In this document: piece after piece, positions 2,984 to 4,737 of the stretch
How positions within the stretch are numbered: the stretch's first letter is position 1
Layout: the number at the start of each line of letters is the position of its first letter
NCBI GenBank assembly: GCA_018067055.1
Contig: JAGPVK010000214.1
Location: forward strand, 1 to 13,608
Direction: 5' to 3'
DNA: 13,608 nucleotides
From: Sphingomonadales bacterium
GTDB lineage: Bacteria; Pseudomonadota; Alphaproteobacteria; Sphingomonadales; Sphingomonadaceae
Program-made: the position numbers and the translations under genes
The notes under the pieces: generated by a model
What the model was told of the DNA's origin: nothing
The model's database searches: none
What the model saw: only the letters and a program-made list of their open reading frames with translations

Positions 2984-3303
2984 CAGCTTGCTCCTCTTGC
3001 CGCTTTTTCATCCAATCCCGACAGACCTTCCCGGCGCGCCAGTTCGGCGATTACGTCATCCAGCGACAGGTCCATATCGGCGAGCAGGACCATCAGGTGA
3101 AACAGCAGATCGGCAACTTCTCCGGTCATCGCCGCCTTGTCGTCCTGGACCGCAGCAATCACCGCTTCGATCGCCTCTTCGCCCAGCTTTTCGGCCATTT
3201 TGGCACGACCTTTGGCGCGGAGGCTGGCCACATAGCTGGTTTCGGGGTCCGCAGCGCGGCGCGCCAAAATCGTCTGTTCGAGAGATTTGAGAATATCGTT
3301 CAT
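2983..3303 (-). CDS. hisE: Phosphoribosyl-ATP pyrophosphatase HisE
   Basis: The 106-residue all-alpha MazG-like enzyme hydrolyses phosphoribosyl-ATP to phosphoribosyl-AMP and pyrophosphate, the second step of histidine synthesis. The diagnostic stretch AEKLGEEAIEAVIAA, followed by GEVADLLFHLMVLL, supplies the conserved acidic residues that bind Mg2+. It is a stand-alone HisE, not the HisIE fusion, so a separate hisI is expected elsewhere. No Shine-Dalgarno sequence precedes the ATG at 3303, but a TTGACG hexamer ends 31 nt upstream, suggesting a leaderless transcript. It is cut off from hisF by the PEP-CTERM unit and its terminator. It overlaps the HIT gene by one base. Confidence 0.95.
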   Translation of the reverse strand: MNDILKSLEQTILARRAADPETSYVASLRAKGRAKMAEKLGEEAIEAVIAAVQDDKAAMTGEVADLLFHLMVLLADMDLSLDDVIAELARREGLSGLDEKAARGAS

Positions 3304-3311
3304 CGCTGGCG

Positions 3312-3340
3312 GTTTGCGCGACCGATCGCCTGTTCGTCAA
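3312..3340 (-). promoter_or_regulatory. Candidate hisE promoter (leaderless geometry)
   Basis: TTGACG (3335-3340) is a near-consensus -35. At 17 bp spacing the -10 would be GCAAAC (3312-3317), which is weak. The predicted start point falls within a few bases of the hisE ATG. Its position just after the hairpin terminator makes a separate promoter for hisE-HIT sensible. Confidence 0.3.
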
Positions 3341-3372
3341 GCCCTAGCGGCAGAAGATTGCGTTACCCATGG

Positions 3373-3403
3373 AAAAGGGCCGCCAGATACTGGCGACCCT
3401 TTT
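3373..3403 (-). terminator. Strong hairpin terminator of the PEP-CTERM gene
   Basis: AAAAGGG-c-CGCCAG, a 3-nt loop, then CTGGCG-a-CCCTTTT form a nearly perfect 14-position stem with one C/A mismatch, 48 bp downstream of the PEP-CTERM stop codon. The flanking A/T runs make it look like an intrinsic, possibly bidirectional terminator. It would block read-through from the PEP-CTERM gene, and from hisF, into hisE. Confidence 0.75.
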
Positions 3404-3450
3404 CGTTGCGTATCGCTGCTGGATAGCAAACGCTACTCTAATCCTGATGA

Positions 3451-3771
3451 TCAGTTCTTCTTACGGCGCTTGGCTGCCACACGACCAGCAACAAGACCGC
3501 TCAGGCCAAAGCCGAGCATCAACATGCTGGAAGGTTCCGGAACGGGAGTTCCACCGCTGGATCCAGTGCCACCGCCGCTGGAACCGGTGCCACCACCAGT
3601 GGAACCAGTGTTACCACCACCCGATGAGCCCCAACCCGAGCTACCCCAGCCCGAGCTGCCCCAACCCGAACTACCCCAGCCGGAGCTGCCCCAGGTTGCT
3701 TGCGCGGGTGCGCCTACGGCAAAGGCCATCGCTGCCACACCAGTCAAAACTGCACATTTCATCGGTTTCAA
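3451..3771 (-). CDS. Small PEP-CTERM surface protein with WGSSG repeats
   Basis: This 106-residue precursor has three parts. A Sec signal peptide (residues 1-25) ends APAQA. A mature region of about 50 residues is made almost only of Gly, Ser, Thr and Trp, including five perfect tandem WGSSG units (27-51) followed by GGGTGSS-type units. The C-terminal PEP-CTERM sorting signal has VPEPSS (77-82), a hydrophobic segment and a basic tail RVAAKRRKKN. PEP-CTERM signals are known to be recognised by exosortase (EpsH) and are linked to exopolysaccharide and floc or biofilm formation; no exosortase gene is in this window. TTG at 3771 is 7 nt from a GGATGGAG Shine-Dalgarno sequence; ATG at 3762 is the alternative, but its spacing of 16 nt is poor. 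The gene has its own sigma-54-like promoter and terminator. The function of the mature peptide is unknown; an adhesive or matrix role is inference. Confidence 0.9.
   Translation of the reverse strand: MKPMKCAVLTGVAAMAFAVGAPAQATWGSSGWGSSGWGSSGWGSSGWGSSGGGNTGSTGGGTGSSGGGTGSSGGTPVPEPSSMLMLGFGLSGLVAGRVAAKRRKKN
3619..3693 (-). repeat. Five 15-bp tandem repeats encoding WGSSG
   Basis: Five consecutive 15-bp units encode residues 27-51 of the PEP-CTERM protein. The units differ at synonymous third positions (for example TGGGGC/TGGGGT and AGCTCG/AGTTCG), while the amino-acid repeat is perfect. This pattern suggests selection on the peptide rather than very recent slippage. Confidence 0.9.
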
Positions 3772-3813
3772 AATCTATCTCCATCCTAAGTTCAAAAAGA
3801 CTATGGATAGTAA

Positions 3814-3830
3814 AGCAACATCTTTGCCAA
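3814..3830 (-). promoter_or_regulatory. Probable sigma-54 (RpoN) promoter of the PEP-CTERM gene
   Basis: The minus strand reads TTGGCAAAGATGTTGCT. It contains TGGCA and TTGCT at the exact distance of the consensus TGGCACG-N4-TTGCW, with the invariant GG (3827-3828) and GC (3815-3816) separated by 10 bp. The start point would be near 3803, giving a leader of about 32 nt that contains the GGATGGAG Shine-Dalgarno sequence before TTG 3771. PEP-CTERM genes are known in other bacteria to be associated with RpoN and PrsK/PrsR-type regulators, which fits. Confidence 0.7.
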
Positions 3831-3899
3831 TTCGCCGAATATCGCTTTTTTAAGGGGATAGAATAGTTAATGCTGTTTCAGAAATATCGGGAATTGTAA

Positions 3900-3917
3900 G
3901 GTAAACCGACATTTACC
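3900..3917. promoter_or_regulatory. Candidate upstream activator dyad for the sigma-54 promoter
   Basis: GGTAAA-ccgaca-TTTACC is a perfect 6-bp inverted repeat centred about 105 bp upstream of the predicted sigma-54 start point. This is the usual distance range for binding sites of sigma-54 enhancer-binding proteins. The sequence between it and the promoter is AT-rich (roughly 3840-3900). Which regulator binds is unknown; a PrsR-type activator is inference. Confidence 0.4.
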
Positions 3918-3975
3918 ATCGATCTCGGGGACCGTATCGTGAACAAACAAAACGCCTTTATCGGATCGGACGGGA

Positions 3976-4737
3976 TCAGGTCCGGGCCGGAAGCCCCGCG
4001 GCTCGCAGAGCGTCATGGGCATCGGATATACTATGTTCGCCAAAGTGGAAAATAGAAGCGGCAAGGACCGCATTGGCATGACCTTCGGTCACGCCTTCGA
4101 CCAGATGATCCAGCTTCCCGACGCCGCCGCTCGCCACGACCGGAATCGATACGGCGTCGGCAATGGTGCGAGTCAGTTCCAGATCATAGCCGTCCCGGGT
4201 GCCGTCGCGGTCCATTGAGGTCACCAGCAATTCCCCTGCCCCCAGTTCGGCCATGCGCAGCGCATGTTCCAGCGCATCGATCCCGGTCGGCGTGCGCCCG
4301 CCATGGGTGAAGATTTCCCAGCGGCCTTCGGCCACGCGCCGGGCATCGATCGAGGCCACCATACACTGACTGCCGAAACGGGTGGCGATATCGCTGATCA
4401 CTTCGGGCCGGGCCACAGCGGCGCTGTTGACCGCAACCTTGTCCGCCCCCGCCATCAGCAGCGCCCGCGCATCATCGGCAGTACGCACGCCGCCGCCAAC
4501 CGTCACCGGCATGAAACAGACTTCTGCGGTGCGCCGGACGACATCGATGATCGTGTCGCGCTTCTCATGGGATGCAGTGATATCGAGGAAGCATAGTTCG
4601 TCGGCCCCGGCCGCATCATAGGCCTGCGCCTGCTCGACCGGATCACCGGCATCCTGCAGATCAACGAAATTGACACCCTTGACCACCCGGCCATTGGCGA
4701 CATCGAGGCAGGGTATGACGCGGATACGGACGGTCAT
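3976..4737 (-). CDS. hisF: Imidazole glycerol phosphate synthase, cyclase subunit HisF
   Basis: The 253-residue (beta/alpha)8 barrel condenses PRFAR with ammonia supplied by HisH to give imidazole glycerol phosphate and AICAR, linking histidine and purine synthesis. It starts [18 protein letters not shown] with catalytic Asp12. The second catalytic Asp131 lies in VASIDARRV. Phosphate-binding glycines are seen in TVGGGVRT and [12 protein letters not shown]. Length is normal and start ATG 4737 has an AGGT Shine-Dalgarno-like sequence upstream. It is separated from hisA by 118 bp holding a composite palindrome. Downstream, instead of continuing into hisE, comes the PEP-CTERM unit. Confidence 0.97.

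Follow-up and report, generated by a model that had tools for sequence, protein, structure and literature searches.

A probable PrsR-type sigma-54 promoter with an additional CtrA-like site at a PEP-CTERM gene of a sphingomonad

The PEP-CTERM gene and its surroundings

The stretch of DNA analysed here, referred to as the window, spans 13,608 nucleotides and carries between positions 2983 and 6784 a his cluster that includes a small PEP-CTERM gene, in the order hisB-H-A-F, PEP-CTERM gene, hisE, HIT-like. The immediate neighbours of the gene, named by eye like the rest of the cluster, are hisF and hisE. Among the loci of 25 relatives (L003-L027), whose length is limited, 24 contain hisE-like words and 12 hisF-like ones, and both are present in G033, a genome from another genus of the family. 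A tRNA gene lies on the minus strand of the window at 736-808. Judging from the names of protein matches, the host is a sphingomonad of the genus Parasphingorhabdus, which agrees with the sphingomonad origin proposed in a preliminary description of this DNA; its assembly comprises 2,699,819 bases and is 80% complete.

The product of the gene displays GWGSS-type repeats, an N-terminus that resembles a signal peptide when judged by eye, and a tail running from VPEPSSM to LVAGRVAAKRRKKN that constitutes the sorting signal. With a PF07589 score of 26-28.9 bits against a Pfam cut-off of 20.7 and an exosortase encoded in the same genome, it is a PEP-CTERM protein, as the preliminary description had stated; nothing else in the assembly matches PF07589. 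The TTG start is supported by several relatives, which keep ATG or GTG at that place. On the 3' side, the region 3360-3420 folds at -36.1 kcal/mol (z -8.2), and the hairpin concerned is absent from the output of a pattern scan. The features of the locus are collected in Table 1.

Table 1. Features of the PEP-CTERM gene and its upstream region, in window coordinates
Feature	Position	Strand	Basis or remark
Terminator-like hairpin 3' of the gene; single-gene unit	3373..3407	-	Fold of 3360-3420
PEP-CTERM gene	3451..3771	-	106 aa, TTG start; PF07589 match, translation
Shine-Dalgarno GGAG	3779..3782	-	Sequence
Predicted transcription start, +1	3803	-	12 nt after the C of -12; inferred from core position
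Sigma-54 -24/-12 core, TTGGCAAAGATGTTGCT	3814..3830	-	GG-N10-GC; TGGCA and TTGC blocks
CtrA-like half-site, TTAACTAT, -67 to -60	3863..3870	-	41 bp upstream of TGGCA
PrsR (motif 1) box, TGTCGGTTTACCTTACA, -108 to -92	3895..3911	-	64 nt before the 17-nt core
Dyad GGTAAA-N6-TTTACC	3900..3917		Letter-perfect; not conserved, probably incidental
Possible second, inverted CtrA-like half-site, TTTACCAT	3912..3919	+	On the minus strand, relatives most often have ATGGTTAA

The sigma-54 core and the PrsR box

The invariant GG-N10-GC and both conserved blocks identify TTGGCAAAGATGTTGCT as a sigma-54 sequence of the -24/-12 type. On both strands of the window it is the sole 17-mer without mismatch to TTGGCAN6TTGCW; no other has one mismatch and 14 have two. 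Exact matches number three in the 2.7 Mb assembly, TTGGCAAAGATGTTGCT included. The preliminary description had already placed a sigma-54 element here, about 43 bp from the coding start with a Shine-Dalgarno sequence in between, and had expected transcription to begin at 3803. These statements hold well, with a measured distance of 42 bp to the TTG, GGAG in the interval, and the same start position predicted from the -12 of the core. The sigma factor itself is encoded in the genome (RpoN, 425.6 bits against a cut-off of 277).

A protein search of 60 relatives, the own genome included, gave a match in 32 and provided 30 loci, of which 26, one per genome, belong to the same genus. The core occupies this place in 25 of the 26. 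At the exception, L007 (G008:C4), neither core, box nor the third element described below was found in the 700-1000 bp upstream; that gene lies roughly 100 bp behind another PEP-CTERM gene, with which it may share a transcript. From these loci, 24 promoters with a clear core, the window's among them, were put into an ungapped alignment anchored at the core. L027, left outside the alignment, has the core, the box and TTAACCA at 41 bp. A sequence-only model, R1, recovered the promoter at E < 1e-11 in 27 of the 32 genomes of the genus. The aligned set accounts for 24 of these 27, and 21 of its sequences had trained the model.

A chance string, with some other promoter driving the gene, could be imagined in a genome that holds 136 sites with at most one mismatch to the pattern (44 for the reversed control). 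It is hardly credible here: the core persists in all but one of the same-genus loci, yet the DNA farther upstream is only about 32% identical; a pattern scan of 3300-4000 found no sigma-70-like site; and a linked box stands at the published spacing. The window gene is almost certainly under a sigma-54 promoter.

The box in question is TGTCGGTTTACCTTACA. The pattern TGTCG-N7-TTACA occurs in 23 of the 24 aligned promoters, 64-66 nt before TGGCA, and pairwise identity in the aligned set amounts to 79% in the 17-nt core and 60% around the box, against the low value farther upstream given above. Haft et al. 2006 (PMC1569441) described a 17-nt motif 1 ending TTTACA, separated by a spacer of 32-92 nt (mean 62.8) from a sigma-54 motif 2. 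Compared with the published text rather than the logo, the window presents the same PEP-CTERM cis-regulatory region, with TGTCGGTTTACCTTACA, 64 nt and the 17-mer core; its box terminates in CTTACA, which departs from the published ending by one letter.

The prsR homologue that the preliminary description had proposed to look for was recovered. PrsR scores 608 bits against a curated cut-off of 502.6, on a contig that starts inside prsR; a TPR gene directly 3' of it matches PrsT at 208.6 bits, below the cut-off of 312.2. The exosortase is XrtA (336 bits against 208), its gene lying among glycosyltransferase- and asparagine-synthase-like frames recognized by eye. On the strength of box, spacing and gene content, PrsR is very likely the activator of the window promoter.

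The same description was right in kind about sigma-54/PrsR control, for which the agreement with Haft et al. speaks and which places the promoter in an already known class, but it chose the wrong operator. It had taken the perfect GGTAAA-N6-TTTACC dyad, at about -105, as the binding site of the activator, and its position and perfection are indeed what makes the idea attractive. The conserved letters TGTCG and TTACA of the 17-nt box, however, sit 5-6 bp off the dyad, and the exact dyad is found in one of the 24 aligned promoters, namely the window's own. The genome scan that had been suggested, once run, returned a sole exact copy, again that of the window, and four places with at most one mismatch against nine for a control. 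In this window, perfect 6-bp dyads with gaps of 0-20 average about 2.1 per 300 bp, so that this one is no more than chance would provide. We therefore discarded the dyad as operator, a role that is very improbable, and regard it as probably incidental.

A third element at a fixed distance from the core

Between box and core lies the less expected part of the promoter, overlooked in the preliminary description. The sequence TTAA[CT][CT]A is found in all 24 aligned promoters, 41 bp before TGGCA in 22 and 42 bp in the other two. In the window it reads TTAACTAT, identical in seven of eight letters to the CtrA consensus TTAACCAT, which is also the commonest form of the element in the relatives. According to the passages cited from PMC3692519 and PMC6180460, TTAACCAT is a CtrA half-site and TTAA-N7-TTAAC the full site. 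A full TTAA-N7-TTAAC overlaps the PrsR box in 10 of the 24 promoters.

To look beyond the genus, genome contigs were scanned blindly, with a pattern made up of the box and the core alone (TGTCGN7TTACA, 56-68 nt, TGGCAN6TTGCW). At least 120 loci were obtained, with 124 sites listed: 14 sphingomonad, 2 ambiguous, 30 from other alphaproteobacteria and 78 from the rest, assigned by hand, the rest including a few labelled 'Pseudomonadota bacterium' or 'Proteobacteria bacterium' that could be alphaproteobacterial. Their spacers range from 59 to 66 nt, with a mode of 63. Among the matches listed, TTAAC[CT]AT falls within the spacer of 6 of the 14 sphingomonad sites (the other 8 have no occurrence) and of one of the 2 ambiguous ones, and in none of the 30 other alphaproteobacterial or 78 remaining sites, that is in 0 of 108 non-sphingomonad promoters of the same layout. 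These seven sites, again among the matches listed, place it at exactly 41 bp in five cases, at 44 bp in one and at 18 bp in one; one of the five, L245, already belonged to the 24, leaving four new. The looser TTAAC is found, among the matches listed, in 6 of 30 other alphaproteobacterial and 9 of 78 remaining sites (15 of 108), mostly at scattered places. Three of these alphaproteobacterial cases, L196 and L250 twice, have it at 40-42 bp, so that the element may extend beyond the strict count.

The 41-bp register is also kept in some Sphingosinicella promoters. None of five parsed PrsR-box PEP-CTERM promoters from other families of the order has the element; in one promoter from family f8 (L125), TTAA-N7-TTAACCAT stands at 33 bp instead, counted by eye. 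Four of eight other-promoter regions remained unparsed and were dropped from the count. Two further places were noted by eye. In G033 (L126/L109), TTAACCAT lies 41 bp before the core, here TGGCC, of a further promoter adjacent to hisF, and in G022 (L121) 41 bp before the core at another PEP-CTERM-like gene.

Two further promoters of this genome, unrelated to the first, keep the register as well. One precedes a protein of 76 amino acids (beginning MWKKIRRLF; C360:1909-2139, L112), behind a PrsR-box/sigma-54 promoter and with a tmRNA nearby. This protein has no Pfam or NCBIfam match. Searching with it gave 520 matches; Parasphingorhabdus accounts for most names among the 120 listed, and Blastomonas and Citromicrobium for one each. 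The protein follows the promoter in all 16 loci read, L323 being cut by a contig end. The box lies 42-43 nt from TGGCA in 16 of 16, and T[TA][AT]AC[CT]A at 41 bp in 15 and 42 bp in one, the copy in the own genome reading TTTACCAT. This count is not blind, since the element is part of R1, the model used to find these loci.

The other promoter, composed of a PrsR box, a CtrA-like TTAA-N7-TAAACCAT and a sigma-54 core, leads to a structured candidate small RNA with no evident ORF at C167:6452-6551 of the own genome (L113:2453-2552; L285). In one relative (L120) the RNA lies between blaI-like and glutaredoxin-like frames, identified by eye, and in some relatives a hairpin with the anti-Shine-Dalgarno-like CCTCCTTTCAGGAGG is found upstream of it. 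Its own hairpin exposes a ACUGGUCUC-type loop, in which GGUCU is invariant across 20 aligned sequences; L314, outside that alignment, has GGUCC. In one parsing run, 20 of 27 loci were resolved. Four folded sequences gave z values of -3.1 to -5.5. In the alignment, standard pairs fill 86% of the pair cells and 14 cells have changes in both partners, where shuffles give 4.7, and sliding the partners by 1-3 columns yields up to 12 such cells; the covariation score is 0.181 against at most 0.150 when slid, and the paired share then drops to 43-56%. A search with Rfam returned zero matches at gathering score.

Searching with R2, a model of the RNA, gave one copy and no more in each of 30 genomes out of the 32 of the genus, and one in G033; 18 of the 30 had contributed to its training alignment. 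Of the 30 loci, 29 could be parsed: the PrsR box is present in 28, exactly 64 nt before TGGCA in 27, and TTAA-N7 with a degenerate second half starting 41 bp before TGGCA in 26. Eight genomes (G002, G006, G010, G013, G016, G019, G020 and G027) have a small-RNA promoter that entered neither the R1 nor the R2 alignment. In all eight of these the CtrA-like element is in place, and seven have the box. The conserved third element and the candidate small-RNA promoter, as sequence features, are the new parts of the finding.

Candidate factors, proposed mechanism and comparison with known systems

Which factor would occupy such a site? The 41-bp register is maintained even where the box is displaced by some two turns, which suggests a factor that contacts the polymerase or shapes the adjacent DNA rather than one that contacts the activator. 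This behaviour would suit an UP-like contact for the alpha subunits of RNA polymerase or, with no extra regulator either, a secondary PrsR half-site: the register is tied to the core and not to the box, which in the 76-aa promoters stands 21-24 nt closer while the element stays at 41 bp. Alpha contacts and PrsR would nevertheless be common to all promoters of this layout, and the lack of TTAAC[CT]AT in the 108 non-sphingomonad promoters listed counts against both; the same 8-mer also occurs upstream of ccrM and ctrA. We thus hold these explanations to be unlikely.

IHF offers another possibility, with TTAAC[CT]AT as a shifted or degenerate site for a plain DNA bend between enhancer and core. 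The IHF consensus-like motif is YAAN4TTGA, and 31 of the 108 non-sphingomonad promoters listed carry it 30-32 bp before TGGCA, where shuffles give about 1.4; we found no description of this motif in PrsR-box promoters in the open-licence literature searched. The CtrA-like element, however, lies 9-11 bp farther upstream and does not fit the consensus, and both can occur in the small-RNA promoters, where the IHF-like motif stands at 32 bp in 9 of 29 and the CtrA-like one in 26. In the form used here, the IHF consensus is found in the spacer of 0 of the 24 aligned PEP-CTERM promoters, the window's included, so that the window promoter does not fit the IHF-assisted sigma-54 type. A degenerate IHF site appears improbable, somewhat more so than the polymerase or PrsR contact.

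CtrA remains the most plausible occupant of TTAACTAT, and we favour it with modest confidence. An orthologue is encoded in the genome (422 bits against a curated cut-off of 350), the region upstream of ctrA carries ATGGTTAA, and one GTTAACCAT site lies 99 bp upstream of a ccrM gene, whose match of 613.6 bits is under the Caulobacter model cut-off of 830; CtrA owes its plausibility to these sites in front of ccrM and ctrA. Two other GTTAACCAT sites lie 120 bp upstream of a diguanylate cyclase gene and 133 bp from an FtsN-like gene, the latter but within the preceding reading frame. Genome-wide, neither this 9-mer (six in the assembly, four for the control) nor TTAAN7TTAACYAT (one in the own genome and two in G022, one and one for the control) is enriched, all of these being small counts. 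An ORF near the L136 site was considered as an flbD case and dropped, as it fell below cut-off for all 25 named regulators matched.

With the elements, their register and the rpoN, prsR, ctrA and xrtA genes observed, the locus can be read with considerable confidence as a sigma-54 promoter of the PrsK/PrsR regulon bearing an extra CtrA-like site, binding and regulation being predicted from these. Phosphorylated PrsR, an NtrC-type activator, would bind the 17-bp box and remodel the sigma-54 polymerase at the core by the standard enhancer mechanism. A short single-gene mRNA would start near 3803 and end at the hairpin. Its product would be small, secreted and rich in Gly, Ser and Trp, and XrtA is the enzyme expected to process it and hand it on to the exopolysaccharide layer. 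TTAACTAT, fixed relative to the core, would be occupied by an additional protein, CtrA being the likeliest; that protein might help to recruit polymerase or gate the promoter, tying expression of the matrix protein to the CtrA motility and cell-cycle circuit. The cited source for the link between sphingomonad CtrA, exopolysaccharide and motility is reportedly Francez-Charlot 2015. Such a link is reported in the part cited of PMC8921679.

More tentatively, the PrsR/sigma-54 module may have been rewired in Parasphingorhabdus and some related sphingomonads, with CtrA binding at one fixed place, about -63, in the promoters of PEP-CTERM genes, small proteins and small RNAs; in other Proteobacteria an IHF-like site is frequent there. 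Matrix output would then be under joint PrsR and cell-cycle or motility control, in a regulon including a new sigma-54-dependent small RNA with a strongly conserved CUGGUCU loop. If true, biofilm-matrix export would be connected, through a clade-specific CtrA-like site at an exact spacing, with the regulator of cell cycle and motility in Alphaproteobacteria, and an OmpR-type regulator would act at a sigma-54 promoter from a place similar to that used in class I activation. The single-copy small RNA and the 76-aa protein, to which this module also leads, become candidate members of the regulon.

The promoter class has been known since 2006 and the finding is mostly known in kind; an account of what lies between a PEP-CTERM enhancer and its core was not found in the open-licence literature searched. 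Haft et al. 2006 reported their layout ahead of 99 of 167 PEP-CTERM genes from Proteobacteria (PMC1569441). The window resembles it in the 17-nt box ending TTACA, the spacer of about 63 nt, the sigma-54 core, the single-gene unit and the association with PrsR and an exosortase. It differs by the addition of TTAAC[CT]AT 41 bp before TGGCA, the text of section 7 of that paper mentioning no third element.

Experimental precedents exist in other lineages. Aquincola tertiaricarbonis is a betaproteobacterium. Its pepA gene requires RpoN1, and primer extension placed its transcription start at a -24/-12 site (PMC9850573, in the part cited); it likewise combines a PEP-CTERM gene, a -24/-12 promoter and a predicted upstream enhancer; pepA, however, adjoins prsT whereas the window gene lies in a his cluster, and the passages cited mention no CtrA-like element. 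In Desulfovibrio vulgaris, the response regulator DVUA0057 was predicted to control PEP-CTERM genes and bound upstream of them, five predicted targets being bound in vitro (PMC3333781); according to the excerpt cited, none of its binding motifs was validated, and the system has no CtrA context. With the CtrA-bound promoters of Alphaproteobacteria, the window shares the TTAACCAT half-site and the TTAA-N7-TTAAC full site. In the passages cited from PMC3692519 and PMC6180460, activating sites lie near -35 and repressing sites at -10, whereas the site described here is at about -63 of a sigma-54 promoter.
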